Part shown: one piece after another, positions 39,601-63,300 of the stretch
Numbering within the stretch: the first letter of the stretch is position 1
Layout: the number at the start of each line of letters is the position of its first letter
Assembly: GCA_026874595.1 (NCBI GenBank)
Contig: CM049307.1
Location: 94,526,330-94,590,329 of the forward strand
Direction: 5' to 3'
DNA: 64,000 nucleotides
Source: Sipunculus nudus
Taxonomy: Eukaryota; Annelida; Sipuncula; Golfingiida; Sipunculidae
Program-made: the position numbers and the translations under genes
The notes under the pieces: generated by a model
The model's input: the letters and a program-made list of their open reading frames with translations, nothing else
Told to the model about the DNA's origin: nothing
The model's database searches: none

Positions 39601-42600
39601 CCCTTCCAAGCAAAATTTTTTCATATATTTAAATATAAGGTTACTTCAGTTTGACTTTGTGTGCAAATATTGAAATTTTATATTAACATAAATGATCATT
39701 TTTGCATGATTATTTAGCAAGTCTTAATTTTAATAATGTAATTATTTTTTTATCTCTGTCAGCAAACCATAATTTATTTTTGTTCTGACACTCTTACTTT
39801 GTGCACCATGTTAACCACACACTGGTGGCTGCCGGTGGGGGGGGGGGGGGGGGGGGTAATGGATAGCCTTCAGTAGTCAGCCTACATCTATGGCTTGACT
39901 TAACTTTGCAAATCAGTTCTGAAGTGTTTTTTTCTACTGAAAATTTTATGAATTAAGACCTGTCTTTACGGTCAAGCCATGCAAACTCAAGATGTCTGTT
40001 ATTGGTGTCACAGTATCTAAGTACCACTTTATCTCTCTAATGAATTTTGTGTATCTCCAAAGAAAAGTTTTGCTATCAGTAAATTATATTTTTGATTAAA
40101 TTGTAAATTGAATTGGATTTAATTCAGATTTAATTGGAATTTAAAATTTGTTACAACACAATGAATTTGGAATTGAAATTTGATATCAAAATTATTGAAT
40201 AGGAATTTGAGCATTGAATCCCAAGTCTGATCATACATCCATATTATGAACATTATAATTCTGTTACCTCTCTCTGCTTATATTCAACATCATATAACAT
40301 TTAGAAAATATTATGGATTTTTTTTTCTTTTCTTTTTAGGTCAAGATGGACCACCAGCAAACCCTTTTGACATCACAAGAAATATTGAAATGGTAGGAAC
40401 ATTACATAAGTCTGTTAGAAAATCAGTGATTGAATCAAATGATACATTGAAATGCAGATATTCTCTAATAATTTAGAGTTTGATTTTAATGTTTACTACA
40501 TGTAATTTTTTGGTGTTTATTACAAGAGAAGCAAGACTGCTGTTATAACGTAATGCCATCTGCATGTACTGTACCTTCTAATTACAGAGACATGCAGTGC
40601 AATTGCTTATATTTGGTATCTGAAACTTTCATTAATATAAAAAGAACCACTTTATCTAAAGTAATGAGGATGTTTCAGTTTTATGAATTCACAGCAAATG
40701 CTCCGTATTTACTCTAGGGAAAACACTTCACATTGACCACTGTTAACTAGAGGAGGAAGCAAAAATGTAGTCCCTTATTAATCACTTTTCCCAAGATTTA
40801 AAGCTGGTCATTAACACATGCCTGTGTCAGAAAATAGCTTCATTACAGTAAAAGGTCTTTTTGTACAGTGTCATAAATAAACCACTTTTTTGGTACAAAT
40901 TTGGTACTCCCGGTTAAAAGGCTTGTACTCTTAGACACACTCCAAACAACAAGTAAATTTAATTAAAAAAAATTAGTCTACCTTTTGATCATCTGGTATA
41001 AAGAGAGCTAGTCATTTATACATAATCTCTAACCATTTCTTAATTCTTGATCGGCTTTCATACATTTGAACTGTAACATAGCAGCATACTTCTGATCTAG
41101 TTAAAATTGAACATCATTGAAAAAGAGTTAATAGTGCTTTAAACATGACAAGTCAATTTCAAGTCTGATCCATACTTTCATGTGGGTATTTATCTTGGAT
41201 TATTTGATTACACAATGCAACTGAGCGGGTGGATGCAAATGATATATAAAAGACAGAAAACAATGTATTACTGAATAAATGCCAAACAGTCACAAAAATA
41301 AATGTGTAATCTCCTTTAATATTGACTTTTGAGTTCATTGCTGTGCTTTAATTATTTGTCTGGTCATGTTGTAATGTTCAGTTTGATTTGTTGATGATTT
41401 TGTTCATATTTTATTGTACATGATTTTTTTCTTGATTTGTTAATGATTATTTTTGGGGAAATAAATATTATTCTAATAATGATTTATATGTGAATATATA
41501 AACATTGATTTGTATATTAAAAGATTACTATTAGTTTGTGAAATTAATATTTTAGTATTGATTCATATAGGTTATTTTAGCATAGATAGGTAAGAATAAT
41601 GTGATATTCATTTGTTAATGAACATTTAATTAATGATTTTTATATAGATATTTAAATGATGATTTGAATATGGATATTTAATTATTAATTTATATAAAAA
41701 TATTTAAATATTGAATATGATAAAAAAATGAATATTTTTATATAAATTGTTAAATTAATATTTAAATATTTATTTGTATGTGAATATTTTCAGGGTCTTA
41801 TGGCCAAGATGTTTTACAACCGAGGTTAGTGTTCACTCATGTACATACCTAACTTTGTATGAATAATAACTACAGAATATTGGTACATTTTTCTCTAGCC
41901 CATTCTCCTTGTGCAGTAGATAAATGCCACATTCTCCTTATTCTAAACCACTGCATGCTTTGCTGGGTTTCCCCACCAGGTGTCTGGCACAGCGCCACAA
42001 TTGTTATCAAGACCAATGAGAACAGGGTATTGCTTTGTGCATCCAACTCTACCTGGTGATGAAACACAGCAAAGCTTACTATAGCAAGCTGTGGTTAAAT
42101 CAAATGAGAACCCAGTTTATATCCACTGTGTAAGGAGTGTAGCCAGCACCATCACAGGAATTATTGACAGCTTATTGTATCATTAGGCACTTAAACAATC
42201 ATTGATCATACTATGTATGTTAGATCCTGTCCCTGCAGATTCCATAGTTAGTAAAACTCTTAACTCAGGGACTTGCACTATTTGTAGCCATACTCTAGAC
42301 CACATCACATGATCATCATCAGCAGCAGGGCATGCTTGAAATAATTCAGGAGGAAACAAAGGAGGCTTTTTTAGCCCTCAGCCCTTAGGCTGATGGGCTA
42401 TTGTCATCACCCAAGCTGTCCGTCCGTCCGTCCGGAGTCCGTTAACTTTTACCTTGTGAGCGGGATATCTTGAAAAGGATTCACCGTCAGAATTTTATTT
42501 CCTCGGTAAAGATGTATATCGACAAAATCTCGGTCAAGTTCGAAGATGGGTGACCTTGACCTATTTTTCTTCAGTTTAGAGCTGATTATAGAAAAACACT

Positions 42601-45600
42601 TAGATGCTTATTACTCAGGAACCATTTGGTGGATTTTCACAAAACTTACCATGATAAATGCGACTGATAGTCTGTACCTGCTACACAAGTTTGGTGGCGC
42701 CACCTACATTTTCTGATTTTTAATGAATTTTTATTGGATTTTTCAACTTAGGGCTTGTGAGCAGGATATCTCTAAAAGGATTCACCGTAAGAACTTTATA
42801 TTTTCGGTGAAGATGTATATTGACAAAATCTCGGTCAAGTTAGAAGATGGGTGACCTTGACCTATTTTTCTACATTTTAGAGCTGATTATAGAAAAAACA
42901 TTTAGAATCTTATTTCTCAGGAACCATTGGGTGGATTTTCACAATACTTACTATGATCATAGGGAATGATGATCTGTAACTGCTGCACAAGTTTTGGGGC
43001 GCCAACTACAATTTCTGATTTTTAATGAATTTTTCTTAAATTTTTTAACTTTGACCTTGTGAGCGGGATATCTATAAAAGGATTCGCAATAGAAATTTTA
43101 TTTCTTTGGTGAAGATGTATATCCACGAAATCTTGGTCAAGTTCGAAGATGGGTGACCTTGACGTACTTTTCAAGGTCACAGAGCTTATAATAGAATAAA
43201 ACTTTGAAGCTTAATTTTCAGGGAGCATTTGGTGGATTGTTATGAATCATGGTACATACCTGTCCATTTTAAATTTATAAGTGAGATATGTACAGATATA
43301 CATCCATGTGAGAACAGATAATTAGTACTTGTTACTGTCACCATGTGTAAACACTGTTCTTTTGGCTGAGGGCTTTTGTCAGCTTCTGCTGATATTCTGG
43401 TTTTTTTTGCAACGACTTATTGCCACATAACCCCTGAGGTCATGTGACAATCCCTGAACCACTGTCAACCATGCCATACTGCTGACAATGAACCCTGTGA
43501 TATGATCAAAAGGTACAGTTATGAACAGTGTAACTCCCCGAGTTAAAGAGATTTATGAGTGATACTTAATCATTGATCATTATGTATGGGGGCCTTTGAT
43601 TGGTGGTGGATCAAGGCCTAATGACTCATCTTACCAGTACAGCATTTACTGCGGTAGACAGAAATCATCTTGGCAAATGGCATAGATAGACAGTATACTA
43701 GACAGTAAACTTTAAGATATACTCTACTTTGTGGTATGTGAATTTTGAGGGTATACAGGTGGCAAAAAAAATAAGTTTATACTTTAATTCTTCTTATTTT
43801 TTATTGTATCGCCAGACATAGTCTGGAGATACTATGGTTTAGGCACGGTCGCGCTGCCGCCGCTGCCGAGATTTCTTTTGGACACAATAACTCAAAAAAT
43901 ATTTCACGGATCTTTACCAAACTTGGTATATGGGTGAGAGGACGACGCCTATTTAAAATGAGGTCATGACCTTAACTAGGAGAGTGACCTTGACCTTGAA
44001 TAGGTTCAATTTTGGGGAAAATCACACAAATTCTTAAATATCTCAAGAAAACTTGCATGGATTGATCCCAAAATCAAGTTGATCGAAGATCATGGATAGG
44101 GTTGTCATGTTCCAGAAACTGGTGGCGCCACCTATTATTCTTTACTTGTTTCATGCCGTTTAATATCCCCAAAATTGCTACTTGACAGTACTGTGGGCAT
44201 TATAAGTCAAAAACTAATGGACAGATTTCTTTCATATTATGCAAATACATAGATATGGGTTATGGGATGATGTTTATTTAAATTGGGGTCATGACCTTTC
44301 CTATGAGAGTGGCCTTGACCTTGAATATTGCCATATATGGTGAAAATCACACAAAATCATTAATTTCTCAATAAGGGATGCATGCATTGGTCCAAAAATC
44401 AACTTGACCGAAGATCTTGGATAGTAATGTCATGTACCGGAAACAGGTGGCGCCACCTGTTATTCTTTTACTTGTTTTCGTGCCGTTTAATACCCCATCA
44501 TTGCCACTTAACAGTACATTTATAACCTGTGAGCATTATTAGTCAAAAACTAATGGACAGATTTCTTTCATATTATGCATATACATAGACATGGGTTATG
44601 GGATGATGTATATATAAATTGGGGTCATGACCTTTTCTATTAGAGTGGCCTTGACCTTGAATATTGCCATATATGGTGAAAATTACACAAAATCATTAAT
44701 ATCTCAATAAGGGATGCATGCATTGGTCCAAAAATCAACATGTTCGAAGATCTTGGAAAGTATTGTCATGTACCGGAAACAGGTGGCGCCACCTGTTATT
44801 CTTTTACTTGTTTTGTGCTGTTTAATACCCCATCATTGCCATTTATCAGTACTGTGAGCATTATAAGTCAAAAACTAATGGACAAATTTCTTTCATATTA
44901 TGCATATACATGGATATGGGTTATAGGATAATGTTTATTTGAATAGGGGTCATGACCTTTTCAATGCGTGGCCTTGACCTTGAATATTGCCATTTTTGGT
45001 GAAAATCACACAAAATCATCAATTTCTCAATAAGGGATGCATTGATTGGTCCAAAAATCAACTTGAACGAAGATCTTGGATAGTGTTGTCATGTACGGGA
45101 AACAGGTGGTGCCACCTGTTATTCTTTTACTTGTTTTCGTGCCGTTTAATACCCCATCATTGCCACTTAACAGTATTGTGAGCATTATAAGTCAAAAACT
45201 AATGGACAGATTTCTTGCATATACATAGACATGGGTTAGGGGATGATGTATATTGAAATTTGGATCATGACCTTTTCTATGAGAATGACCTTTTCTATGA
45301 GTGTGGTCTGATATTAATTGTTGCTGAAGATGGGGGGCCTATTCTTAAAGGGGGGGGATAAATTGTCTGGGGATACTATGGCACCTGCGGTGCCAAGAAA
45401 TATCTAGTTAATACAATGCCTTGATAGATGTGCAGATATTTTAAGTTTCATAATACAAATAGGAGCTCTATAAACAAACTACTTCAAGTGAGTCAAAATG
45501 AAAAGCTCAGATAAATGTTGGCATACTGTGACTGTAAGATTTGCTTGGTTTTAGTGGGTCTGGTGTTTTTCTACATCTGTATTGCCCTGTATCTGTATGG

Positions 45601-48600
45601 TGACCTGGCTATATATGCTGCTGCTGTTCCAAAGTCACTGAGAGATGTTGCTTGGTGAGTAATAAAATACACAGAATATAATCTTCATTAAGGTATAATT
45701 TAGGTCATCAGTGATCTATACCAGGATACTTTCCTTAAAATTCTAATAATTTTAATTTGAAATTTGGAACATTAGTGACTATCTATAAATCTGAGATATG
45801 ACCACTGCATATGGATCTTGTGTAGCAGTTTTATTTACGGCTTTAATAGTTATTTATAATTCTCATGTAGCATTAAGCTTAAGAAATGACCTATCCATGA
45901 ACTCTGTGTGACCTTAATCGCATATTCATTCAATGAATAATCATAAGCATTTGACAAATGATCAACCAACCAGGTGACTTTAAACATTGTAAAGCATCAA
46001 TCATCTGTCAAAAACAAAATTTTGCATAATTTGAAGCTCTGTCAAACAGAACATGTGTAGTCTGTACCAGCACCCATGTCGGGATATTTTTTTTATACGA
46101 AGGAGACAGTCTTAAAAGTTTTTGGCTATAGGTTGCAGGAGCCATTCCTCTGACTACAGAGTGAATAATAATGTTTCACCTGGCAAGTATTTCGTATGAC
46201 ACAAATAATCCAAAATAATGCAAGACAATACACAATGACTGCAATATATTCAACAATTGAGAACCGTGATACCAGTTGATGACGTCAGTCAATGAGAGAT
46301 CATATGTCATCGACCTTTGTTAGCTCTCGCTTCCATGGGCATGGAAGACCATCTGCGTAGGAGTGTTTCGGGGCTCATTATAATAATTAGGTTAAAAGGG
46401 AAAAGCATTTGAACTGTGGTAGATAGGTCAGTTGTGTTCATTATTTGTCTACTTTTTAGGTTTTACAAACACACTATAAATGCATAGCACCTTTTTTTGA
46501 TAAAAAATTTTGATAATTAAGACATAATTCCTCTTATTGTAAGGATTATATTTACTTATCATTATTATTTTTATTATCATAATCATTTTTGTAATATCAG
46601 CACCTTCAGATTTTCAAGCAACATGACAAACGGAAGCTGTAATGTCACCTTGACAGACAGTGACCTCTGCTGGCCTGGTGTGGAATCAGTCAACCGAGGG
46701 AATGCGTACAGAATATTTCTTGTAAGCCATACAATATCTAACATAACACATTAAAGATGGCTGCTTCTGATGATTAATTAACAACAATTCAAAGAGCTTA
46801 CAAATATGTAACTTTAGGCCATATGACAAAGTAATCTATGTCTGTTCAAACCTCCCCCCTCCCCCTCACTCAGTATATAAGATACTCTGATATACAAATA
46901 AACTATTATACAAATAACAAGGTATGTTTGTGTTTCCCATTAGTGAAATATGTTTATGCCATATTCTGTCAGTTAAAGATTTGATATATAAACATTCTCT
47001 TTAAAAAGCTATACTAAAATTTAGGTTTTTATTAACCAGAATACACCCAGAGTTTAAATAGGGTTTTCTGTATTACTGCCACATTTTTCAGCAGTACATT
47101 AATTTAAAAACTAAATTAACGTTTAAGTATATACATGCAAGATACAGAGTTAGATCTCTGATTTGTTTGATGTTTGACTTTAACAGGAGTCTTCAAAACT
47201 ATGACTACCATGATAATATCTTTTTTCTTCAGGCTGTGTTTGCACTAGCTCTTGGGCCGTTCACCTACTTCAATATCCAGAAGACCAAAATCCTCCAACT
47301 ACTTACCACCCTCATGCGTTGGCTCGGTAAGATGCAGTTTTTTTTCTGTAATTCAGGGAATGGAAAGCTGCAAGTTGAGGCTACTAATATTTCAGCTGAA
47401 CTTCTTGTGTTCAACAGATCATAACCTTAGCAAGATCACAGAAGTTACTGGCTCCTGTAGCTCACGGGTAGAGCACCAGATTGGAATCTCAGCCGAGGCA
47501 GCTATATTTTCTGCCAGGGTGAACGCTCTGCTGGTTTAATGGGAAGGCTGTGCCTCATGGCTGTGTTTCACTCACAAATGAGTGTGCCTTTTTGGGGTTC
47601 CTTGCTGGTATGAACGAGCACTGGGGACAGTTACACACTCAGGTCCCACAGGTGCAGTAGTCACTGGGCCTGGTTAACACCAGGATATCAAATTAGAAGA
47701 AGCATATAATGCTGCCCTTTCACGTCTGAAACAGGAAGGGAATGCTGCAGATGTACATATACTTAGTTAAGCTGACATTAAAAAAGTGGAGGCGGTTACC
47801 TCCTCCCCCCCCCCTAAAAAAAAAAAGGATCACAGAAGTTTGAAAGTAAGGCCTGTTCTTATATATATATATATATATTACTGAAATGTATAATGCATGA
47901 TTAAGACAATCTTCTGTAATACAGTGTCATAATTTTCTCTTGAAAGTGTTTTGCCCCCTCTGATCATCATTTAATGCTTCATTTAAGTTTTCTTTATTTT
48001 CTTTCAGCATTTGGAACTATGATCACCCTGACTGTCATTCGCCTTGCCAAAGGCCAAGGTCAAGGTCACCCTCCAGTTGGACAGATTTCTGGAATCCCCA
48101 ACCTGTTTGGTGTCTGTGTCTATTCGTTCATGTGTCACCACTCACTCCCTTCTCTCATCACTCCAATTAGACAAAAACATGGCTTGTTTAAATTTTTAGC
48201 AGGAGACTACACCTTAATTCTGATATTCTATGCTGTGTTATCATTTACTGGTATATTTGCTTTTGCAAATTTACAAGATTTATACACACTTAATTTTGAG
48301 CCAGATGTATGTGAAAGTGGCACAAGTCCTATCACCAATATCAAATTTTTCCAATATTTTCTTGCTTTATTTCCAGTGTTTACACTCAGTACAAATTTTC
48401 CAATAATCAGCATCACATTACGTAATAATCTAAAAGCTATGTATTATATGCTGCCGTGTGGTCGACAATATTATTGGGCCGTAGATCGAATACTTTTTCC
48501 AAGTTTAGCCATCGCTCCTCCGATATTAATAGCCTTAGGCACTGATAATGTTGGTGTGTTAGTTGGCATTACAGGGTCATATGCTGGGGCAGGGATACAG

Positions 48601-48783
48601 TATGTTATACCAGCCACACTGCTGTATTTTTCTCGAAAAACAATATCCAACATTCCTAGTATAACAGACCAGAACCCTCATAGAACTCCATTTAGTCACA
48701 ATCTTTGTATATTAGGTGTGCTAGTCTGGGCCTTGTTATGTATTAGTTTTGTTACTGTCAATCACATTATTACTGGGAAATAA
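30700..48783 (+). CDS. TMEM104: TMEM104 orthologue, complete gene, ten coding exons
   Basis: Multi-pass membrane protein of the amino acid/auxin permease-like group (SLC38-related fold); the substrate of the family is not established to my knowledge. Coding exons: 30700-30747, 36335-36456, 37268-37352, 38529-38661, 40340-40392, 41794-41824, 45555-45654, 46601-46721, 47233-47326, 48008-48783 (stop TAA). All junctions are GT-AG and every phase agrees, giving 520 residues (human about 496). Residues 17-56 hold the first membrane helix with the motif NLIVGTGALTMPKAF. Residues 86-147 are a hydrophilic linker ending in NPFDITRNIEM. Residues 159-190 contain YLYGDLAIYAAAVP. Residues 191-231 form a loop with three N-glycosylation sequons (N198, N201, N205), so it probably faces the lumen or outside. 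Residues 264-520 hold the remaining helices, with LFGVCVYSFMCHHSLPSLIT and GIQYVIPA. The start is supported by the YSxx[IV]GL match to vertebrate TMEM104 across intron 1. Intron 1 is 5.6 kb and intron 6 is 3.7 kb, both repeat-filled. Identity is from remembered family sequence. Confidence 0.95.
30845..31400 (-). mobile_element. Inverted-repeat element containing a tRNA-like SINE head, TMEM104 intron 1
   Basis: On the minus strand, 31071-31001 resembles a tRNA with a perfect B box GGTTCGATTCCC (31021-31010). Flanking it, ACTATAGAACGCGGGCTTC at about 30857 is mirrored by GAAGCCCAGTTTCTATAGT at about 31366, suggesting terminal inverted repeats around or beside the SINE. A GC-rich segment with GGGGAACCCAGGTTCCCCGG lies at 31214-31235. 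Whether it is one element or two nested ones is unclear. Confidence 0.4.
34835..35515. repeat. AT-rich tandem array in TMEM104 intron 1
   Basis: Irregular repeats of AATCACTTAGTAGCATAATA and AATCACATAATATAATAAAC over about 680 bp, with units of about 18-40 bp. No coding potential. Confidence 0.85.
35961..36310. repeat. 28-bp tandem array just before TMEM104 exon 2
   Basis: About twelve units of AGATTAAAATGGCTTCAGTT plus AAATTTTC. The last ends roughly 25 bases before the exon 2 acceptor (exon starts 36335). Every unit offers a TTCAG acceptor-like word. Confidence 0.9.
42372..43400 (+). mobile_element. Helitron-like element, family C, in TMEM104 intron 6
   Basis: Subterminal inverted AGCCCTCAGCC/GGCTGAGGGCT near both ends. 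The right end is a hairpin TCAGC-TTCT-GCTGA (43379-43392), TATT, then CTGG (43397-43400) and T. The core is three tandem units of about 303 bp, marked by GAGCGGGATATCT at about 42459, 42762 and 43062. A GGTGGCGCCACCT site lies near 42694. A short (TCCG)n run near 42421 follows the left end. Confidence 0.65.
43801..45407 (+). mobile_element. Helitron-like element, family B, copy 1, in TMEM104 intron 6
   Basis: Starts at TTATTGTATC followed by a CCAGAC-ATA-GTCTGG hairpin. It ends with a perfect hairpin GGCACC-TGC-GGTGCC (45380-45394), nine bases and CTAG (45404-45407), then T. The core is four tandem units of about 325-340 bp, each containing GGAAACAGGTGGCGCCACC or a variant and a segment reading TTGACCTTGAATATTGCCAT. 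Sense to TMEM104. Confidence 0.75.
47446..47797 (+). mobile_element. tRNA-derived SINE, copy 2, in TMEM104 intron 9
   Basis: TGTAGCTCACGGGTAGAGCA is the A-box region. The B-box region is partly deleted. It shares GCAGTAGTCACTGGGCCTGG and CTGCAGATGTACATAT with copy 1, and both end near a GGCG-TTACCT segment. Copy 2 carries about 90 extra bases in the middle. Confidence 0.65.
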
Positions 48784-51700
48784 CCAGCTAACTGATATCT
48801 GCAGAAAATACCAGGATATTGTATAATGATTGTAAAATATTAGGAAAATTTATTTAGTTAGCCCACCATGAAATACCATCTTCCCTAAGCTAGTGGGCAA
48901 TGAGCTGTCACCAAAATAACCAAGTGGCCAATTAGATGTCACTGTGCAATGTGTTTTTCTGGCATGAGCCAATAAGATATTGTACAACAATCTGTGTTGC
49001 TAATCAGAAATCATCTGACAATGTCATAATGATTCCTGCTGTGTCACATATGTTGTTTTAAATATTCAATAGGGTAGTGTTATCTAGGCAAATTAAAGGT
49101 GTTTGTTTTTTTTATGGAAAAAAGCATTGCTCTTTCTTGCAAATCTATGTATACTGGCATTAGCCATATATTCTGGCATTTGTGGTAGTAGCAGTTTGCT
49201 AGGGATGTTCATATTAGGGACATTATCTCATTTTCAGAAAGACTAGTGTGCAAAAAGAAAAATTTTCTTATCAAACATTTAAAATTTATTAGAAAAGAAA
49301 TTCTTAAAAATTGTTTCCTGGTTTAAAAGTTTTAAACATTTATAAATCATAATATTGTAGATAATTGTAGCTAACATTCCTTAATAAATAAACTTCAAAT
49401 TAAACCATTTCAAAACAATACTCAGGGTTTCTTGTAGATTTCTCTCCAGTAGTTAGGTTTATATTTAAAGTTTCACACTGGAAACTTTCTTAACAATTCT
49501 TTACAAGATGTTATATAGCTACACTGCTTTCCAAGCTTAAACTGTGCTTTTGGTCTCACGATATGTGGTCTGAAAGCTCTACCTCAGTATTTAATTATAT
49601 CACAGTATGCACCCATAAGCACTTTTTGAGTTGACCATGAAAATATTGATATAAAGGCCATAACAAAAGAATAAGTTTTTCTTTGCAGTCTGGGACTAAA
49701 ATAATTTTTTTTTCATCATAAGTTATTTACTGTGTAACACTATACAGTGGTGTAAATATATCTTCTGGGGGGGGGGGGGGGGGGAGGGATTAACATATAT
49801 ATACTTAATCATGTTTCAAATATATTGCAAGTATATCATTTTAGAAAATAAGATATTATGTTTCCAGTATGAGTTAATTGTATTCATAGTAAACTCATAA
49901 AATGGAACCCAAGTTTATAAATTATTTATTAATATATTTCATTTGCAGTATATAAATATAATTCTCTGAATAGTTTGGGATGAATACATTGACCATCCTC
50001 CCCTTGACAAAAAAAAAGGGGGGGGGGAGTAGATACCCCCCCATCCACCTTATATTGATGCCCGAGAACCTATACTTGTGTCTTGCCATTCTAATTAACG
50101 GGTATATAATTTATTATTAATGGAAGTGCCATAGAATAGATTAAAAGCATGATATGGGTAAAATAGAGCAGGCTAAAGTTTAAGGCCTTAATTTTTTTTA
50201 TACTTCTTTTGTCTGAACCCTTTTTAGATTAAACTATCTACATGTGTAACAAATTATTATATTGGGGTAAATTTTAACTAATTTGTATTATATAGCCTAT
50301 GAGGCTCCAGATTTTAGGGTCAGTTAATGGCCCGTCAGTTACCATCAGTGCATTTAATACAAATACAAAGTCATAAAATTCCTTCTCACAGAGTTGTAAA
50401 ATGGATATTTCAATTAATAATATTACCATATGATAATCAGTCCAGAAAGTAATAATAAATATTTATACATGAAAATATCTAAAAATATTTTCTTTCAATT
50501 TTCTTATGCAAATCAATGTGGTTGTTATAACCAGCATGTAATATAAACAGCAGTGTACATACATTTGTTATTACTATGGTATGATCAATGAATAGCTTCC
50601 AAAGACTTCTATCAAAGGAATTTAAAATTGTAATTTTCATATTTTAGCAAGCACATAAATTATTAAATGCATAAATTGATGTTTTTAAATGTGTATGATT
50701 TCTCCTAAAATTAGGTTCAGACTTCGATAAGAAACACAAATGTCTTTTAAATTATTTGAAAGAATAGCTATTTTAATCAGGATATAATAAACATAAACAT
50801 AAAAGACAACTACAAGATACGTTCTTTACACAGCGCTTTAACTATAGGCCTAGTACCTACATCGTAAGTTGCTTCTTTAGAAGCACAAGATTTCCGCTGC
50901 CTTGAGAGCGTGACTACAAGAGTAATGACTGGAATATTTGCAGATATATATTATTTATGTAAATATAAATAAAATGTTTAAATTTATTGTTCAGGTTCAT
51001 TCTTGAGACAAAAATGTACCCTGTTTGTTAAATGGGGTTCCTGAAAATAGAGGTTTCATTTGCTTTATATTTTATTTCTTTTTAAGTCACATGTACATTA
51101 ACACTTTAACATTGCACTGTACATAACATGACATATAAAATATTTTATTTAAATTGATTTAACACCAGTGTTGCTTTTTTTTTTATATTCCATTCGATTT
51201 TGGTTCCAGGTAAAATATACAAGAATAAAATCATGGTGGTTAACCAACTTTTAAATTAGCAAATTGTAGATGATTTAATTTTATATTTCTAATGTATGGA
51301 ATGCCCGTATTGTTACATTAATGAGCAAATGAACAAAAAATACTGTAGATAAATTATTATTCATCAGCTAGAGTATATGATCTTATGGTAACTGTAATTG
51401 ATATATGATACAATTTCAAACCAATACCATGCCATTAAATGCACCAGAATCAGCAGTAATACACCAATATAATAACACAAAATCTCTTTGAAACATAGAC
51501 AAAAAATTGTTTATTGAGTCAGTGTGAATCATGAATTATGCAAGTATATATTAATGATATCATACTGGTATTTTATAAGTGAAATACAATTTATTGCAGT
51601 GTCGTGCTGTATCATCATGTGATATTTAGATTGTAGGATGACATGATCTGGAAATTTGCTCATAATGAATTTCAAGCACTTGCCTCTGATGGATACATTG

Positions 51701-53404
51701 TGTGCTCAGTAGCACCTAGCAATGTTCATTTATAAGAGGTTAATGTAAGATGTAAAAAACTGTTTAGTTATTGTGTGTGCACATAAGTATACCAGCATAC
51801 ATACAGAATTGTCAGGGAATCACACAGTATATGATCCAACCAGGGCAAATCGATTTATTTAAATTTATTATAAAAATGATTTGAGAAGATATGTAATTAA
51901 ATTGCAATTAAATCATTTAAAACTTTAAAGATGTTAATATATGATTTATTGTCCAATATTTTTTGTTCTTGATTTTAAGACATAAGTTTATCTGATGTGC
52001 AAAGTTTTGGAAATGTTGAAGTTGCTTGCATGCATTATCATGTTATTGAACAATTGACCAATTTGTCCGTCATGTATTTTGGAAATTAATCAGGAACAAG
52101 TGTAAAACTGATTTAGTAGAACAGCTTTTTTTTCTATTTAAAGTATTGTATACTGTAACTTTGTCCTTAGGACATTTAGACCATCAACCATCATTACCTT
52201 ATTTTATATATAATAATATTATTGATACTCAAAAAGTATGTGTATTATTATTAGGGCTGTAATGATAATTTATCCTGTTATGATACATGTACCACAATAC
52301 TTGAGTCACAATATTATACACTATACAATACATGATAGAAGTAGGATTAGAGAACAGATTCATGCTCTCCTCATTTTCTGGAGTTCAATTATAAATTTCA
52401 ATTTTTGCCATAATTTGGACTTAAGGAATAAACTCGAACAGTCCCTTAAAATGATTTGATTGCGGCGATCAGCCAATCACGTCAGTAAAAGGGTTTCTGG
52501 CCAATGGTGTTTCACCTAATATGCATTGGGATGCTATTTGATAATATATTATTATTAAATGCTGGCAGTCACCAGTTAAAAAACTTAAACATTAAATGTT
52601 CTGTGGATGGACAGATACCATGTGTTTTGAATTCAGGGACAACTGACACTGATACTGTATCAGTGTATCTGGTCTGTGCTCCGGTGAACTGTAACTGCTC
52701 CAATCATTCTTATATATTTGTGATCAATTTGGAATACTCTCTAGTAGAAATAAAATATTTTATATCTTTTGTTACCATATTTTCAGGGTGTCTCGTTGTC
52801 AAGCATGTTTTGTTCTCAATCTCAGTCATGTGTGTCTTGGCTTGGCTGCTTCTCATTTGCATGTGAAAATTTAGCACCTGACATGTGAACCCCTCTCCCT
52901 TTTCACTGTGTTTCTACCTGAAATTTTTTTTATTGATTAATATTTTATATTAAGCAAAAAACACCTAATTTCAAATTAATTAGCCTATTATATTAACACT
53001 GTATATGTATTAAATTTTAGCTCCCTATTGATTGGTCAGTTTTGAAATATAAATATGCAAATAATTAAGCAGATGTAGAAACACTCCAGTATTCATTAAA
53101 ATAAACAAAATCATTTTAATAGCAGTAACATTTTAATTCAATTTTACACATTTTTTTCATACAAAATATATAAATATATGAGCAGTATTGTTCATATAAC
53201 ATGCTGCATGATAACTCAATTTACCGTGGAGTACTCCTGTCAGCTGTATCATCACCATACAAAATACTTCCCTTGCTGTTGTAAACACCATACAGGGTTT
53301 AAAAATTTTAACAAACTGATTTAATGACATAGTTGCTTCCGCCAGGTGGTTTTGCATTCATCCAAATTTGTGTGTGTGTTTGTGTTACATGTGTAATCAC
53401 AAAG
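48784..53404. other. TMEM104 3' UTR and intergenic region
   Basis: AT-rich, with several AATAAA hexamers (for example near 49382), a (G)n run at about 49768-49786 and a (G)n/(C)n pair at about 50021-50041. The 120-codon frame at 52504-52866 has no recognised similarity or splice support. Confidence 0.45.
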
Positions 53405-53632
53405 GGTACCTCATGACATTTTAAGGGAGGGGCCAATGAAGAATCAGATTTTGGTGTGGATCTAGATTAAGAAACGTCATTAAGGAATTTTCAAAAATGT
53501 AGTCACTTAGGCATGAATGAACCTGCCAATATGGGCTGAATAAGTGAATGCAAACAAGCTTTTGGGAACATCCCACAATAGGACCCAATGACAGAGGCCT
53601 GAATTCCTTGGAAATCAGATTTCTAATTGTAG
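53405..53632 (+). repeat. Interspersed repeat, copy 2
   Basis: Diverged partner of 1832-2076 in the same orientation, carrying CAATGAAGAATCAGATTTT, AAATGTAGTCACTTA, TGAATGCAAACAAGC and GGCCTGAATTCCTTGGAA. Lies between TMEM104 and NUP85. Confidence 0.5.
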
Positions 53633-53929: not shown

Positions 53930-54180
53930 AGTCACATGACACCTTGTGACACAAAATTATTGGCTGAAGAAGAGGTCATGACCTTTAGACAGTCACATGA
54001 CCCCCTAGTGGCCCAAAATCATTGGCTGAAGTAGAGGTCATGAACTAAATAGTCACATGAGATCCTGTGACATATAATAATTTAATGCTTATGACCTTTA
54101 GATGGTCACATGACAGCTTGTGACCTTAAATCACTGGCTGAAGTAGAGGTCACGACCTTTAGACAGTCATATAACACCCT
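53930..54180. repeat. Tandem repeat of about 60 bp downstream of NUP85
   Basis: Four to five units with TGGCTGAAGTAGAGGTCATG, ACCTTTAGACAGTCACATGA and CACCTTGTGAC. It lies about 210 bases beyond the NUP85 stop, so it may fall in its 3' UTR. Confidence 0.7.
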
Positions 54181-54390
54181 GCCACTCAAAACAATATGGC
54201 GAAATGTAACCTGCCGTTAAGTCAAAGGAGTGCTATCATTTTAACAAATCCCCCATAGCACTTGCTGAAACAAGAGAAATCTAATATTCTTCTCAGAAGA
54301 TCAGACGGCTGCATACATGTCAAATTAAGAAACTCTTTAACTGCAGTCCTGGTCCATTTGCTGGTTCACACGTGGTGTGTGCTGGTCTGA

Positions 54391-57300
54391 TCATAGTTTA
54401 GTGTTGCCCTCTTGGAGGATTGCTCGAGCCAGATTTCTTGCAAGTCCAAGCTTCATCATATCTAACCTCTCCTTCTCACTCTCCTCCTGGGCCTGAAATA
54501 GACAATAAATTATGATAAAATTAAAGGTGCATAATATTATGTAATGTGGCATGATATCACAATTCTGCTGTGTAAATAATTAAGAATACAACATATGCAA
54601 CACAAAAACCCCATCGCAGAATAAAGTAAAGGTGTGTCCACAAAAAGGGATAATCATAAAAATTTTAAGTAGTTAGCAAGTCAATGAACTGACCTTTTGG
54701 CATGAGTATAATATACCTTCATGCTGGGGGGAATTACTTTTAAAACTCATCAACTTATTGACCTAAGAGGCAAAATAAAATCCTGTTGTAATGCAAAGGG
54801 TAGATTCAATCAATATTTCCATTTAAGGTCTTTCCACATAGATTCATACATATCCTGTTTTATGACTCACACCTTGAGCATGGGGCTGGACAAAGAACAA
54901 ATTAATCATAAATTTATATTTGAAGTTATAAAATGATAATTTTAAATCAATTTCCTCTCTAAATTTAATATTAAAATAAATTTAGATGTAACGGTAATCC
55001 TAAAAAACAAAGGCTTCTGGATCATGGACCCCTAATGGGCCTTCTGTGCATATTAATTTTTAACTCAACTAGCCATCAGTTACATACAGTGAAATCTTGC
55101 TATGATGACTGTGTTAGCAGGAGATTTTTATGAATTACATTAGTCCATGACCCAAAAATATGGTCGTCTTAGTGGGTTGTGGTCATAACAGGGTGGTCAT
55201 CACAGCAGGGTGGTTGTCAGGCAAGATTTCACTGTAACTGTATTTGGCATACATTGCAAAACATTAAGTGAGTCCTAGGCTTGTTAAGTTTGCTGATTAT
55301 CATATGACACCTGACACCTACCGGTGTTGGTCGTTTGATGTCTCCGCTCGCTTTACACTTCTTCTCCAGTTTACTGGCCATCATGTGTTCTTCTAGACAA
55401 TGCATCAGTTCATATGTCTGCTGTGTGTTGAACACCACCTGGTGGAGATAAAAGTAATTAAAATCAAGACACTCCAAGTATTAAGGTTAAATATCTTGCA
55501 CATAACAAAAAGAGGTACCATTTTGCTTGGCTTGGAATTAAGGCATTTAACAAAGCAAAGCAATATATAGAGAAATTCATATAATCACTACTGTGCTGTA
55601 TTTGCATCAAGTCAATTAAATCTCAAGCTTACAAATGGTCAACAGCGTAGATGTAATAATATCTTACCTCTTGAGCCTCTAGAAGGGGTAAAGCATCAAG
55701 CAGCAAGGTGGTCCAAAACCTGTCAAAGCACATTTAAGGTTATATTCCAAGAATATTCTTTCAAACATTTGCCTACTAATTTTAGCATTCATAGACTTAA
55801 TTCTGCTAAACCTAGTTTCTTAGTGATATATAGGTTTTAATTATGTAAAAGAGTATGGCCCTGATATATAAACTGACTGAAAAATATAACTGTATATCAC
55901 TCCAAAACTAATCAGCAATATTTAATTTATAAATAACAAATAATCGTAAATAATACATTTACACACTGCTCCCATGCATGCGAGACTGCTGCTAAGAACG
56001 GCCTTCGAAAGTTGCAATATTATCGCCCACTCGCCGGCCCAAAAACGATGTCTGTCAGGAAGATATTAAGGAAACCCTTCTAGAATAAACCGCACAGTGC
56101 TTTCAGGAAATCAACCTGATTTCAAGATTTTGAATTTCTTGATTAAACCGCGGTTTTAAGTGGAGATTTTATGGTATACTGAAAATAACAGAGATATGTT
56201 TATGATTGGTATCCTTACTTTTTGGGAGCCAGCCTGGATGTGAGTAGAGATAACAGGAGTGAGGCTGCTGCTCGTAGCTCACCGCTTGTGTATAAATGGT
56301 GGAATTCTCGATATTTCCCTGCAAAATATATACCCAGAGATAAGTAAATGGTTCCAGTAAGGATGAATTTATACATTTACATATAAATTAATTATACTTC
56401 ATTTCAATTTGAAATTATTATAATTATGTCAAATGAATTTCTTGTACTTTCCATGGTATAAATAAACCAAAAGTAGTTACATGTGAAAATACAAAATAAC
56501 ATTTTTAAGATGTGTATCTGTCTGCAAAAAATCACAAATAAGGTAAACTATGTAATGTTGATAAAAGTAAAAATTGCATTGGTGCATGAACTCACCCAAA
56601 AATGTCAGTTTGTCACTAAGCAACATTGATGACCCAAGATGATCAACAAGGTCCAGGTTAGAAAAATCTCCACTCTCTGTGTATTCATCCAAAAACCTGG
56701 CGAAAAATGAAGAAACCAAGCATCATCTTTGGAAATGGCAAGCTAGATAAATTTGGTTAATATCTGTGGAGGTTATAATAGGCTTCTGGTTGTTATTGAC
56801 TCTGAACATTTTATACAATAAAATGTCACTCATAATACATAGGATCTCATTCAAATAGTCATTATCATCTGCAAAAATTAGCTACCTGTAAGTTAATTTT
56901 CAATTTTTTTCAATAACTTAAAAAATTACCTTACAATATTTAATAAATAAATGAGTTGTTTTTCCTGTTGTTACAGATAAACAGTAATACATTGTTAAAA
57001 CAAAAGTAGACTCTTACCTCTCAGCTATATATGTGACCAATCCTATATCCTGAAAAAGAAATATTTCAATGGATTACATTTCTCTATCAGTACTATGATA
57101 ACTAGATATTTCTTGGCACCTGCGGTGCCACAGTATCCCCAGACAATTAATCCCCCCCTTTAAGAATAAGCCCCCCCCCCCATCTTCAGCAACAATTAAT
57201 ATCAGACCACACTCATAGAAAATGTCACTCTCATAGAAAAGGTCATGACCCCAATTTCAATATACATCATCCCCTAACCCATGTCTATGTATATGCATAA

Positions 57301-60300
57301 TATGAAAGAAATCTGTCCATTAGTTTTTGACTTTAAATGCTGACAGTACTGTCAAGTGGCAATGATGGGGTATTAAACGGCACAAAAACAAGTAAAAGAA
57401 TAACAGGTGGTGCCACCATTTTCCGTTACATGACAATACTATCCAAGATCTTCGATCAAATATATTTTTGGACCAATCCATGCCTCCCTGATTGAGATAT
57501 TAATGATTTTGTGTAATTTTCACCATATATGGTAATATTCAAGGTCAAGGCCACTCTAATAGGAAAGGTCATGACCCCAATGTATATATACATCATCCCA
57601 TAACCCATGTCTATGTATATGCATAATATGATAGAAATCTGTCCATTAGTTTTTGACTTATAATGCTCCCAGTACTGTCAAGTGGCAATTATGGGGGTAT
57701 TAAAAGGCGTAAAACAAGAAAAGGATAATAGGTGGCACCACCAGTTTCCGGTATATCACAAGGCTATCCAAGATCTTCAGTCACCTTGATTTTTGGACTA
57801 GTCCATGCAAGCTTACTTGAGGTATTTAAGAATTTGTGTTATTTTCAGCAAAATGGACCTATTCAAGGTCAAGGTCAGTCTCATAGCATAGGTCATGACC
57901 CCACTTTAAATAGGCTTAGTCCCCTTACCTATATCTATACAAATGTAAAGTTTTAAAAAGATCAGTGAAATATTTTTTGAGTTATTCCTCCTCACAAGGT
58001 TTTTCTGTGGCGGCGGCGGGACCGTCGTTAAACCATAGTATCCCGACTTTGTTTGGGGATACAATAATCTTCTGGAATCAAAACATTTTATTCTGGTTCA
58101 GACCCTGTTTTAAACTAGAAAACTGACAGGTCAGTAAGGGCCCGCAAAAGATTCAGTCATTATTAATTGAAGTACTGTGAAAATGGTGTACTTTGGTAGC
58201 ATGGGCTGAAAGAGTGATATTTGAAAATTAAAGAACCTGTAAAGAACAGCTGACATGTACAAACTGGAAGAAAAGATATGGTAAAGTGAAAATGTTCAAA
58301 GCTATCAAAATAATGATATAAAAGAACTGCATGCATTTTAAGTTTCTGTCTTTCTGTATTACCTATGCCAATTGTTCTTGGTTGAAGTCTTGGCTGGGCT
58401 GTGTCAAATATTTTTCCAGTATTTGTATGTTGAATTGGCCTTATTATATGTAAGGGTTGAGTCTGTACATGAACCTTGTAGTATTAGAGAGAGTCAGCTG
58501 TTGGTTAGTAGTGATAACATGGTCATTCTCTTGAACTTAGATACAGCTGTTCTTGGGTTTGGGTCTACAGATGCACTGTGATGTATAGAATGGCTACATA
58601 TGAATATCAATGTAAATTTGTTGATGGTCACTATAATAGGTCCAAATTCCTTGAGATGTTGGAAGTGAAGATAGATTTGTCCAAACATGGTCTAAATGAG
58701 AGCCACTGTGAAGCGTTTGGCCAGTGTATCCTTTTCTGGGGAATCTTCAAATTGTCTGTACAAAATATGCTGTGAAAATGTAATGCCGCTGTACACGAGT
58801 GACTTGAAAAAGATTCATCCATTTCTGGCCTGCTGAAGGAGACACCAGCAACTGATCACCAAACCGTGTATTACTTTTTTTTTTATTTCTGACCCAAATA
58901 TCAATAAGCCTCTCCCTTAGGCCATGGGTGATACATGTTATGTTTGAATCCTATCCATCATAATCATATGTTAGGGGAGTTATTATGCAGAAACAAATTT
59001 GATTGTTCATCAAATTCTTTGCGAGTTATTGCATTAACATCATTTGAGAATTATCGCCTCTGTCAAGATCATCCATCTTCGAACTTGACCTAGCCCTTCA
59101 TAACAAACATTACTGGTGCAAGTTAAGTGAATGTTAGTCAAATTGTTTGCGAGCTATTTGGTTAACATCATTTTAGCATTATCATCTCTATGACCTTTAA
59201 AATCCATCAAGGTCACCCATCTTCAAACATGATGTAGTTCATCAAAAGGTCAATCACTGCAGTGAGTCTGGGGACCTTATATGAAATTCTTTTTACGAGT
59301 TATTGTGTTAACAATGTGTGTCCTTTTGCATGCATATTTGCTAAGAGAGTGCAACTTTACTAGGTGTTCGGTAATGGTTTTTACCGCATAACTTACAGAA
59401 AAATGGCTGACTATGACCAGATATCATGCCTCGTTGCTGTGGACATGAGGACCTGTCCTACTGTTAAGGTGGAACAAACAATTATGGTTACAATTATGAT
59501 TTCTGCCCTGCTGAAAGAGGGACCTAAAATTTAACACCAAACTGTGAATAACTTTTTTGACCTTTGACCTCAGGACCCCAAAATCGATAGGGATCTTCCA
59601 TTATTGATGGTAAATACATATTTCAGATTTGAACTCAATCCGTCAATTCTAACTGGAGTTATCATCCAGAAAAGAATTTGTGGACGGATGGACGGACGGA
59701 CGGACAGACAGACGGACAGGTCGATTACTATAGGGCACCCGGGGCCCTAATTAAGTTTGCTTTCAATATAAGTCAGAACAAAGTACACAATTGTGATATC
59801 AAACATTAATTCCATTATTCATTCAGTGCCACTGTAATGGAAATTCTTGGTGTCAAAGTACTGACCTTAGCTTTGATGCCCCACGTGAGAGCTGACCCTA
59901 GGCGACCTCTGTGAAGTGCCCTGACTGCCATCACTTTACAGATGCTCTTTACTGAAACAAAAAATGTCATTAATGATTATATTAATCTAGCTAACCAATA
60001 ACAGACCAAAGATACCTGAAAATTTTCTTACCAAAATTGTAGTTCACTAACTGAAATTGAATATGCTTTCTCCAATTCATTAATCATATTTTGGTAGACT
60101 ATTTCCAAAACAACCTTTAATTATTTATTTTTTTCTACTTTTTAAGATTAAGTTCAGTATTTAGTATAAATTATAAGGTGTAGGCTCCAGGGTCTAATTG
60201 TTTTTGGTGAATATAAGCTGAATACATCACATAAGTGAAACTAGATGTGTCGGAACGACACGAATGCCCCCACCTGGGGCAAATTAGAAACATTTGTAAA

Positions 60301-63300
60301 ATTTTGAAAAATTTTTTAAGTTCAGGAGGTGTCGTATGGTCAAAAGTGGGTCAACAAGGGCAAAATGCAAACTCGATCTGTAACGGGTCATTATCAAGCA
60401 ACACACCAAAATTCATGCCAGTATATGCAGGCATTGTGAAAAAAAGTCCATACATGTGCATTTTCCATAAAAATTTCTGTCTTTCATGAAATTTTCTATG
60501 TTTAGGAGCCGTAAAACAATCAAAAGTAGGTCAACTGGGACAAAACCCGAACTCGATCTGTAACTGTCATTATCTGCCCACACATAAAAAATCAGGGTGG
60601 TATCTGCAGGCATTGAGGAAAAAAAGTCAGTACATATGCATTTGTTATGAAAATTTCTATTTTTCATGAAACTTTTTATGTTCAGGAGCAGTCAAATGGT
60701 CAAAAGTAGGTAAACTGGGACAAAACAAGAACTCGATCTGTAACTGGTCATTATCTGCCTACACACCAAAAATCAGGCCCGTATCTGCAGGCACTGCGAA
60801 AAAAATTCCATACATGTGCACTTTTTTATGAAATTTTCTATGTTAGAGCACCATCAAACGGTCAAAAATAGGTAAACTGGGACAAAACGTGAACTCGATC
60901 TGTAACTGGTCATTATCTGCCCACACACCAAAAATCAGGCCAATATATGCAGGTATTGCGAAGAAAAGTCTGTACAAGTGTATTTGTCATGAAAATTTAT
61001 ATTTTACATGAAATTTTCTATGTTTAGGAGCCGTAAAACAATCAAAAGTAGGTCAACCGGGATGAAACGCGAACTCGATCTGTAACTGTCATTATCTGCC
61101 CACACATAAAAAATCAGGGTGGTATCTGCAGGCATTGAGGAAAAAAGTCAGTACATATGCATTTGTTATGAAAATTTCTATTTTTCATGAAACTTTCTAT
61201 GTTCAGGAGCAGTCAAATGGTCAAAAGTAGGTAAACTGGGACAAAACAAGAACTCGATCTGTAACTGGTCATTATCTGCCTACACACCAAAAATCAGGCC
61301 CGTATCTGCAGGCACTGCGAAAAAAAGTCCATACATGTGCACTTTTTTATGAAATTTTCTATGTTAGAGCACCGTCAAATGGTCAAAAGTAGGTCAACTG
61401 GGACAAAACGTGAACTCGATCTGTAACTGGTCATTATCTGCCCACACACCAAAAATCAGGCCAATATCTGCAGGTATTGCGAAGAAAAGTCTGTACAAGT
61501 GTATTTGTCATGAAAATTTATATTTTACATGAAATTTTCTATGTTCAGGAGCCGTAAAACAATCAAAAGTAGGTCAACTGGGACGAAACGCAAACTCGAT
61601 CTGTAACTGGTCAATATCTGCCCACACACCAAAATCAGGCCAATATCTGCAGGCATTGCCAAAAAATGTCCGTACATGTGTATTTGTCATGAAATTTTAT
61701 ATTTTTCATGAAATTTTCTATGTTCAGGAGCCGTAAAACGGTCAAAAGTAGGTCAACTGGTACGAAACGCGAACTCGATCTGTAACTGGTCTATATCTGC
61801 CCACACACCAAAAATCAGGCCAATATCTGCTGGCAGTGCGAAAAAAAGTCCGTACAACTGTTTGATTTCAGAATGACGGAAGGACGGACATGGGTAAAAC
61901 TATATGCCCCGGCCACTTTGTGGCGGGGGCATAAAAAGCTATTGTGGGAATATCAAATCTGTGAACAAATAATCATCATTGTGTCATTTTTGCCTTTCAT
62001 TTTCAAGAGCCTAGTGTTATCTCCTTACTCCATTACAAAATCTGGTTTACACAAATTATATCAGTTTACAACAAATGATAACAAAATAAATAACTTCAAT
62101 TAAGACTCAGGAACAATCCCCATGGACAGTCCTAAAAAACTGAATGAACAATATCAAATTTCATATGTACATATCACAGAAACCATACACATAAAAGGCA
62201 CATCAGCATGTACGTGATAACCTCTGAATGACCTACTGACCTTGGGCCTGCATTTTTCGACATTCACACAGATGAATGACCTTTTGAGCCTTGACCTCTG
62301 TTTCGATTGGAAGATGCTCGACAAACTGTTCTAAATATTGCCTGTACAGCAGAAAATGAGAGTAAACACAAATATCAATGAGAAATACAAACCTTTGTAT
62401 GAAAGTGAAGCTCATGGTTAAGCTTATGCTAAGCTTACTTGTACAGAAAGCCAGAATTTATGACATAGTTTAAGGGGTAACATTAAATCTACAAGAAGAT
62501 CATAAACTGAACACTTATCAGGGTAGATCCATCAAAGTTTGAAAATTTAATTATCGCTTATATTATCATAAAATATTACTTGTAGTATGAATAAAATATG
62601 CTCAGTGAATCAACAGAATCTACACAAAACTAATTTAAAACAACAATTCTCAAAGAGTCTATAAATTTTACAGTTTATGTGATGTCAGGCTTGGTAAAGA
62701 AAGATAATATTAATATATATATATCAATTACATTCATGAAAGAAACATAAAACAACATACCTTCCAAACTCCTTACAATGGTCCAGATAACTAGCTCCAA
62801 CTTGCCACAAACTGTAAAATAATAGATTAACAGATCAGCTGAATGTAATTCAGTGTTACCTCCAAGTTACTGATGCCAATGAAAATTGGTTCATTACAGG
62901 GAGCCTGTATTAAAACATTACCGAGCATCAAGTCTATAATATGGTTGGAATCATAGTGGCAAAATACAATTTTATGAATTTTGTGACTGTTAATCGTCTC
63001 CTGTAATCTTTGTATCATAGTTTTTGTCACTGAAACATTTCATGATCTGTATAAACTCCTCAAATCCTCATTTATAATCTAAGATTAAATATTTCTCAAA
63101 TTTTAATGATAGGAAATAATGGTTTTACCTTAGGAGAAGAAGATTATAAAATATAACAAATATACTTTTTAATAGTATTGCAAATGATAATATTTGTATT
63201 AATAAGTATTACTCAATATAAATGATGTTATGTGAGGAAAACAATACAGAACTAATATATAATAAATTTAATGTAATAAGTTGTATGAGTTCTGAAAGTA

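Follow-up and report, generated by a model that had tools for sequence, protein, structure and literature searches.

Probable non-autonomous rolling-circle elements with tandem-repeat cores and HINE anatomy in the genome of Sipunculus nudus

A stretch of 64,000 nucleotides from Sipunculus nudus (assembly GCA_026874595.1, contig CM049307.1, positions 94,526,330 to 94,590,329; hereafter the window) contains several families of non-coding sequences in which a core of tandem repeats is closed by a short hairpin, CTRR and a T. This raises the question of what kind of element they represent and how they spread. A previous sequence-only reading took them for non-autonomous members of the Helitron superfamily comparable to the HINE elements of bivalves, an assignment now supported by their anatomy and by empty insertion sites for families A and B. 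We conclude that families A to E are very probably non-autonomous rolling-circle elements of the Helitron superfamily with the anatomy of HINEs (non-autonomous Helentrons), and that these non-coding elements probably spread by rolling-circle copying. Seven near-complete elements in five families and one remnant make up 15% of the window:

1..605, minus strand: A1, remnant at the window edge with array units and a decayed 5' region
5054..6368, minus strand: A2, near-complete, 1315 bp; 5' palindrome 6337-6366, CCG microsatellite 6304-6318, array with GGTGGCGCCACC, 3' subTIR ~5085-5098, hairpin 5065-5083, CTGG 5054-5057, then TT
14487..15275, minus strand: A3, family A, 789 bp; one mismatch in the hairpin, TTAG end, then TTA
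42371..43400, plus strand: C; 5' palindrome 42372-42400, GTCC microsatellite 42418-42433, array of 302-bp units 42442-43238, 3' subTIR 43364-43374, hairpin 43379-43392, CTGG 43397-43400, then TT
42693..42704, no strand assigned: GGTGGCGCCACC in the C array
43804..45407, plus strand: B1; 5' palindrome 43806-43832, array of 336-bp units 43950-45292, 3' subTIR ~45364-45376, hairpin 45379-45395, CTAG 45404-45407, then TT
57102..58064, minus strand: B2, a shorter B copy; decayed 5' palindrome ~58036-58062, CCG run 58011-58019, hairpin 57114-57130 with inverted loop, CTAG 57102-57105
58115..59750, minus strand: E; 5' palindrome ~59731-59749, GTCY microsatellite 59690-59717, hairpin 58122-58135, CTAG 58115-58118, then TTT; weaker than the other elements
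60241..61934, minus strand: D; 5' palindrome 61903-61933, array 60309-61856 (~179-bp units), 3' subTIR 60264-60274, hairpin 60247-60261, CTAG 60241-60244, then TTT

The hairpins with CTRR-T ends that had been reported for families A to D are all present, and family A lies at 1-15.3 kb, outside the range originally proposed (42372..61936). Family E (58115-59750), the 5' palindrome with its matching 3' subTIR and the microsatellite had been overlooked. The parts of an element follow each other in the order TT, 5' palindrome (the subTIR and its complement), usually a microsatellite, the tandem array, 3' subTIR, hairpin and CTRR. All seven window copies, whose 5' starts were placed by eye, begin with TT; six of the seven end with CTRR, the exception being A3 with TTAG, so that the family A ends in the window read CTGG (A2) and TTAG (A3). 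The family A hairpin stops 11 nt before the 3' end. The best match of each 3' region is the 5' end of its own family (7/7 copies), and a 5' subTIR with a complementary inverted repeat (IR) and a matching 3' subTIR is found in A to D. We count family E as weak because neither of its ends folds better than its own shuffled sequences and its subTIR match covers only 7 bp. When folded as DNA, the 5' palindrome reaches z-scores of -4.3 to -5.3 in four of six elements (A2, B1, C, D), while the 5' fold of B2 does not rise above its shuffles. A 3' hairpin is present in all five families, with z-scores of -2.3 to -5.3 in A2, B1, B2 and D and weaker values in C (-1.6) and E (-0.4). By an exact rule, four of the seven elements contain a microsatellite (GTCY in C and E, CCG in A2 and B2); D carries an imperfect GTCC run, and A3 and B1 have none by this rule.

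The combination of hairpin, CTRR and T had been regarded as the hallmark of a Helitron end, a view that does not hold for this motif taken alone: with arms of at least 5 nt the window contains 22 such sites, against 16.4 (sd 4.4, maximum 29) in 60 dinucleotide shuffles, and with arms of at least 6 nt it contains 11, against 5.65 (sd 2.6, maximum 12). A strict rule that couples the 3' end to the 5' palindrome gave three occurrences in the window, none in the 60 shuffles and none in the reversed window. What exceeds chance is hence the coupling of the 3' end with the 5' palindrome, and not the hairpin with CTRR and T by itself. In these counts the index wraps near the sequence edge, which can only add false matches; a row at 52665 in the list of ends is an artefact of such wrapping.

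The families are widespread in the genome (1.43 Gb). The A hairpin occurs at 5,717 places, against 146 for the backward control, and the B 3' end at 1,420, against none for its control. Of the distinct A places that were selected solely by their hairpin, without requiring CTRR, all 22 stop at CTAG followed by T, so that copy ends do coincide with the CTRR position. All 12 B copies likewise carry CTAG, a motif that was itself part of the pattern by which they were selected. A copies are identical at up to 99.2% of positions over 1.7 kb. The 5' end starts with TT in 21/21 A and 6/6 B copies; since the search motifs for this end began with TTG, the TT start is partly selected and other starts would be missed. 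The element termini are TT...CTAG rather than TC...CTRR. Two B copies in the window had been described as having identical ends in different genes. This is true of their last 15 nt (100%), while identity over the last 30 nt is 87%, against 47% outside, and the hairpin loops differ (TGC in B1, GCA in B2). Their location in different genes is plausible: an exon matching PF01490 lies 2.5 kb after B1, and a NUP85-like exon (27-residue peptide, E 4e-5) lies 1.8 kb from B2.

Paralogous empty sites were found for three A copies (L013, L009, L020) and two B copies (L066, L061). In each case they indicate insertion into TWA|TT with neither duplication nor loss of target bases; the target-site duplication that was looked for is absent from all five. 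The 42 matches spanning the L013 empty site are overlapping units of one array, and the best empty paralogue of L061 has C at -1 where the filled site has A. Among the 21 A copies with both ends, T occupies position -3 in 21, A position -1 in 20, T position +1 in 21 and T position +2 in 20; the same four bases are found in each of six B copies, so that both families together show A at -1 in 26/27 and T at +1 in 27/27. As a T stands at the joint in element and target alike, AT|T is another possible reading of the site, and the exact cut may be displaced inward by 1-2 nt (A|TT, AT|T or ATT|). No direct repeat abuts the element in 17 of the 21 A copies; the remaining four have repeats of 3, 1, 9 and 3 nt, that of 9 nt within a TTA run. 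Collectively, these data define the ends of families A and B, their insertion at TWA|TT without target duplication or loss, and their presence in many copies, some A copies being about 99% alike. Family D has T-rich flanks (a T run before the palindrome at 4/4 5' ends, TTT after CTAG at 2/2 3' ends), and its site may therefore differ from that of A and B; we found no empty site for C, D or E.

These results bear on three other interpretations. That the repeats are nothing but satellite arrays, with hairpin ends that match by chance, would accord with the chance-level frequency of the hairpin motif on its own, but the coupling of 5' and 3' ends and the high genome counts of the A hairpin and the B 3' end speak against it, and the empty sites refute it for A and B; we consider it practically out of the question. 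Hardly more credible is an older reading of the pearl elements of bivalves, which would make these sequences MITE-like transposons that move by cut and paste, have subterminal inverted repeats and duplicate 3 bp of target (TTA). TTA does follow CTRR in 4/4 and precede the 5' end in 3/4 of the window A and B copies, which resembles such a duplication; yet nothing has been duplicated, because the five empty sites already hold the bases that flank the joint, and most A copies have no abutting direct repeat.

The elements might also be canonical Helitrons (TC...CTRR) that carry tandem repeats by happenstance. Their CTRR end, the position of the A hairpin 11 nt from the 3' end and insertion at A|T without duplication fit this proposal, whereas the TT start of the seven window copies (by eye) and of all A and B copies with a located 5' end (by TT-motif search) does not; nor does the definition of Helitrons as quoted by Thomas et al. 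(2014; PMC4067079) include a subTIR with IR. We judge it improbable, while noting that PMC4344730 and PMC7992393 apply the name Helitron to elements that combine TC and CTAG with subTIRs, so that the name is partly a matter of convention.

For non-autonomous rolling-circle elements, the favored interpretation, we envisage that a RepHel protein encoded elsewhere in the genome would nick the 5' end in trans, that rolling-circle copying would displace a single strand, that the 3' hairpin and CTAG would mark the stop point of copying, and that the displaced strand would be joined to the target at an A|T site. Pairing between the 5' and 3' subTIRs may bring the element ends together. The arrays would expand and contract in blocks within the element, through slippage during copying or unequal exchange.

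As had been proposed, the bodies of families A to D are arrays of units of 160-340 bp: 278 bp in A (halves of 129-131 and 149 bp), 336 bp in B, 302 bp in C and ~179 bp in D; E has merely a degenerate pair of units. The array units of A, B and C have the 12-bp palindrome GGTGGCGCCACC in common, a detail not previously described, with 21 matches in the window (at most two mismatches) against 0.24 expected, all of them in A, B or C arrays. It is conceivable, though we think it rather unlikely, that this palindrome is a working cis element (e.g., bound by a dimeric protein or acting as a signal when arrays amplify), maintained by selection and transferred between rolling-circle families with differing ends; such families would then compete with a common core and private ends. 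Array-deletion junctions, inspected by eye in a few units, showed no clear association with the palindrome. In the literature searched, the string GGTGGCGCCACC occurs in one paper, on an endochitinase.

That the elements encode no RepHel agrees with a Pfam scan of nine of the ten window ORFs of at least 110 aa (26566-26919 was left out), none of which is RepHel. The genome contains at least 143 matches to the RepHel domain (150 of 195 candidates scored), with open frames of up to 2,426 aa and an HxH motif in all five frames inspected. The suggested autonomous element with a matching 3' end was not found in the readable parts of the RepHel loci. In 30 of them (L025-L054; flanks of 1.5 kb on either side of the domain), the end motifs of all five families detected no family end except a D 5' end in L052. 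Five longer stretches, of 10 kb (L055, L056) or 8 kb (L057-L059), were compared with the element sequences and, together with L070, scanned for seven A-D end motifs (the C 3' end and E excluded); the sole family end in them was a D 5' end in L055. We take the D 5' ends in L052 and L055 to be separate insertions. L070, which adjoins L054, is 98.7% identical to L055 across the entire 3 kb compared, and this identity therefore provides no element boundary. L056 and L059 contain four hairpin, CTRR and T sites that belong to no known family. Element strings had no match among viral and GTDB contigs.

The elements are of a known kind, a mixed Helitron/Helentron type that the oyster already has, and carry short tandem arrays. 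In Cg_HINE of Crassostrea gigas, Vojvoda Zeljko et al. (2020; PMC7492417) describe a 5' subTIR of 11-12 bp that is followed within 1-12 bp by a complementary IR of 7-12 bp. The elements studied here share with it the subTIR/IR, the microsatellite (GTCY/GTCC in several Cg_HINE), the central tandem repeats, a 3' subTIR followed by a palindrome, and the lack of target-site duplications; one Cg_HINE group likewise combines related flanks with unrelated repeats. TT was suggested there as the preferred site and CTRR does not appear in the main text, whereas A and B show TWA|TT and CTAG, and here one array palindrome is common to A, B and C. For Helitron-like elements of C. gigas with subTIRs, Penaloza et al. 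(2021; PMC7992393) report A|T insertion in 86%, subTIRs in 257/751 and an IR in 33% of those, and see possible Helitron/Helentron intermediates. Both sets have a hairpin followed by CTAG at the 3' end, insert at A|T and contain subTIRs and IR; the oyster elements start with TC, those described here with TT, and the A and B ends rest on empty sites. What is new relative to the oyster is that for two families paralogous empty sites support both the ends and the place of insertion, where those of tandem-bearing HINEs have often been inferred from motifs. Full HINE anatomy is hence compatible with a Helitron-type A|T site and CTAG end, and the near-identical A copies make this genome suited to finding an active helper and to testing how element cores become satellites.

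With the Hel-2 Helitrons of Lepidoptera (PMC4344730) our elements have in common a hairpin and CTAG at the 3' end, a 5' inverted repeat, subterminal inverted repeats, a tetranucleotide microsatellite and flanking A/T; Hel-2 differs in its 5' TC and 250-bp consensus, the available description mentioning no tandem array. The proto-Helentron of Phytophthora infestans (Thomas et al., 2014; PMC4067079) has 5' TT, 3' CTAG, A/T insertion and no target-site duplication as well; it is described as autonomous, 14 kb long and Helitron-like in structure, whereas our elements are non-autonomous and have subTIRs. Short central arrays are also known from the pearl-family elements DTC84 and CvA (PMC5139131), and DTC84 in addition has a conserved palindrome close to the junction of its repeats.

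When read in element orientation, the window copies of families A to E, which are non-autonomous elements of the Helitron superfamily, present their parts in an identical order, with a subterminal inverted repeat (subTIR) and its complement (together the 5' palindrome) at one end and a matching subTIR, a hairpin and a CTRR motif followed by T at the other.

Ends of the five families (hairpins in brackets)
Family A: 5' TTGTATCCGCCAAAAC-GAA-GTTTTGCGGATAC ... 3' TTTTGGCGGATACAC-[GTAGTCG CTTGT CGACTAC]-CCGTATT-CTGG, then TT
Family B: 5' TTGTATCGCCAGAC-ATA-GTCTGGAGATAC ... 3' TGTCTGGGGATAC-TA-[TGGCACC TGC GGTGCCA]-AGAAATAT-CTAG, then TT
Family C: 5' TTAGCCCTCAGCC-CTTA-GGCTGATGGGCTA ... 3' GGCTGAGGGCT-TTTG-[TCAGC TTCT GCTGA]-TATT-CTGG, then TT
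Family D: 5' TTATGCCCCCGCCAC-AAA-GTGGCCGGGGCATA ... 3' GGTGGGGGCAT-TC-[GTGTCG TTC CGACAC]-AT-CTAG, then TTT
Family E: 5' TTAGGGCCCCGGGTGCCCTA ... 3' GGGCCCTT-[ACTGAC CT GTCAGT]-TTT-CTAG, then TTT

Seven near-complete elements (A2, A3, B1, B2, C, D, E) and one remnant occupy 9,636 of the 64,000 bases of the window. One of them had been missed in the sequence-only reading:

58115-59750, minus strand: family E element with a GTCY microsatellite, a CTAG end and unit sequence in common with C

The loop of the B2 hairpin (57114-57130; GCA) is the reverse complement of that of B1 (45379-45395; TGC), and the B2 hairpin looks as if it were inverted relative to B1. Judged by eye among the matches listed, TGC far outnumbers any other loop of B 3' ends elsewhere in the genome, and GCA is absent. 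A short GTCY run adjoining a weak inverted repeat (18098-18145, minus strand) may be the decayed 5' end of another HINE.

The sequence-only reading had regarded a hairpin followed by CTRR and T as the hallmark of Helitron 3' ends. This signature is indeed present, but it does not discriminate by itself: its 22 occurrences in the window are not above chance (60 dinucleotide shuffles averaged 16.4, with sd 4.4 and maximum 29; the reversed window had 14). With arms of at least 6, there were 11 occurrences (5.65, sd 2.6, maximum 12 in the shuffles; three in the reversed window). A strict rule combining the 5' palindrome, the matching 3' subTIR, the hairpin, CTRR and T matched three elements (A2, B2, D), and neither any of the 60 shuffles nor the reversed window contained a match; none was found either when six other five-letter motifs replaced CTRRT. 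A looser rule, applied to the window alone without shuffle comparison, yielded eight rows including A2, B1, B2, C and D; family E was picked by eye and lies outside both rules. In a swap test, each of the seven copies had a 3' region that scored best against a 5' end of its own family. Folding of the 5' palindromes gave z scores of -4.3 to -5.3 for A2, B1, C and D; those of B2 and E did not differ from shuffles.

Three looser-rule rows were dismissed, those at 16767 and 26208 as low-complexity or minisatellite DNA and that at 52665 as a computational artefact. Other repeats in the window are:

8098-10249: large inverted repeat with two ~800-bp arms (90% identical; spacer ~550 bp), each containing an array of 74-76-bp units; it looks like a foldback element
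24356-24547 and 47606-47801: dispersed pair, 74% identical, SINE-like by eye
1841-2074 and 53410-53628: dispersed pair, 71% identical
26061-27394, 34855-35528 and 35954-36309: minisatellite arrays with periods of ~20, ~86 and ~28 bp

Throughout the 1.43-Gb assembly (window at C2:94526330-94590329), the A hairpin pattern occurs at 5,717 places per strand versus 146 for the backward control; these figures count the hairpin by itself, and the count is equal on both strands because the pattern is its own reverse complement. The B 3' end occurs at 1,420 places (732 + 688) versus 0 in the control. We compared 20 A and 10 B regions, a non-random sample since it was taken from the top of the list, where every place lies on contig C1, with most variant-loop A places omitted. 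All 22 distinct A places, chosen by hairpin and upstream subTIR, end in CTAG followed by T, with a second T in 21. Both ends were located in 21 A elements, window copies included (the 3' rule required YTRR), and a motif rule identified the 5' end for six of 12 B 3' ends; the other six were left out of the count of ends. Because the 5'-end motifs began with TTG, the search itself favoured a TT start to some extent; it placed no condition on the flanking bases. Among these 27 copies, T occupies -3 in 27, A occupies -1 in 26, and T occupies +1 in 27 and +2 in 26 (binomial tail ~1e-12 or less for each, given the base composition of the DNA analysed). The A copies measure 789-2,180 bp, and some of them moved recently, as pairs reach 99.2% identity (median 85% over 145 pairs with alignments of at least 700 bp; 18 pairs at 95% or more). 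Four loci (L008, L052, L055, L004) hold additional family-D ends, three 5' and one 3', with T-rich flanks and identical over 31 nt to the window D ends.

Flanking target-site duplications had been named as one observation that would speak against Helitrons. We concatenated the two 150-bp flanks of each copy and compared the product with the window and the genome loci analysed; paralogous empty sites came from copies inserted into repeats.

Paralogous empty sites
L013, family A: within a 63-bp tandem array; 42 matches span the site, best 97%
L009, family A: 93%, repeat within the same locus
L020, family A: 93%, three loci
L066, family B: 95%
L061, family B: 95%

The best matches, and 12 L013 patterns that account for 36 of the 42 matches, show neither duplication nor loss of a base at the joint. 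The TTA around three of the four window copies of A and B is therefore the target, TTA|TT. Mismatches were a C at -1 in the L061 paralogue, TTA in the empty L020 copies versus TAA in the filled copy, and an A at +1 in one L013 pattern; spanning rows of L061 and L009 at 74-81% with gaps near the joint, and the L010 A copy at 77%, were not counted. Since both the start of the element and the continuation of the target read TT, A|TT, AT|T and ATT| are all possible notations for the cut; the absence of duplication is independent of its exact position.

The element bodies are tandem arrays. A and C units share 65-69% identity over ~105 bp, A and B units 61-72% over 53-122 bp, and C and E units 84% over 56 bp and 64% over 115 bp; a reversed control gave no cross-family unit match, and D units matched no units of the other families. 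The 5' sequences of A and B are 65% identical over ~120 bp, and the ends of these families are therefore related on the 5' side. A palindrome shared by arrays of three families, GGTGGCGCCACC, occurs 21 times in the window with at most two mismatches (0.24 expected), always within A, B or C arrays. Cross-family identity was 0.90 inside it, 0.30 outside and 0.48 in the best other 12-bp window (two windows omitted), a comparison that anchoring on the palindrome biases in its favour. In A units chosen by their flanks, the majority fraction of palindrome columns was 0.98 versus 0.90 for unselected neighbours (64 units) and 0.92 versus 0.74 in a second set (85 units), with the exact palindrome in 57 and 48 units, respectively. 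This higher conservation may reflect either selection or shared descent. No exact copy of the palindrome occurs in three of the six B copies or in 151 kb of loci encoding the Helitron protein RepHel. In the D array (60338-61856), a ~522-bp block of three units is duplicated at 91.7% identity, which suggests that the array grows block by block; other register shifts give 79-85%.

Families A and B thus have defined ends, a target, insertion without duplication and high counts, and A has recent copies as well. Judging from the Helitron literature, a RepHel protein would act in trans through nicking and rolling-circle copying, for which the 3' hairpin would be the stop signal. Helitron_like_N gave 143 matches in the genome, with 150 of 195 candidates scored; 22 RepHel loci compared form three or more groups, with 30-40% similarity from one group to another, and five frames read carry PHAH, PHIH or PHVH motifs. 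The suggested search for a RepHel element with the ends described here found none among the partly read loci. In three loci of the commonest group (L057-L059), long tandem arrays begin directly after the ORF, and those of L057 have units of roughly 325 bp; these loci are possible autonomous relatives with cores of their own. RepHel loci L054/L070 and L055, 209 kb apart on contig C7, share 98.7% identity in a 3-kb stretch compared beyond the gene and represent either recent copies or a segmental duplication.

In the open-access literature, the anatomy of Cg_HINE (PMC7492417) matches that of our families part by part. Such anatomy together with CTAG and A|T has been noted before, both in oyster Helitron-like elements (PMC7992393) and in the Hel-2 elements of Lepidoptera (PMC4344730), and proto-Helentron (PMC4067079) has TT...CTAG termini and inserts at A|T; empty sites were likewise used in PMC7492417 and PMC4067079. 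Because anatomy, CTAG end, A|T target and TT...CTAG termini all have these precedents, the families described here are further members of an already known kind.
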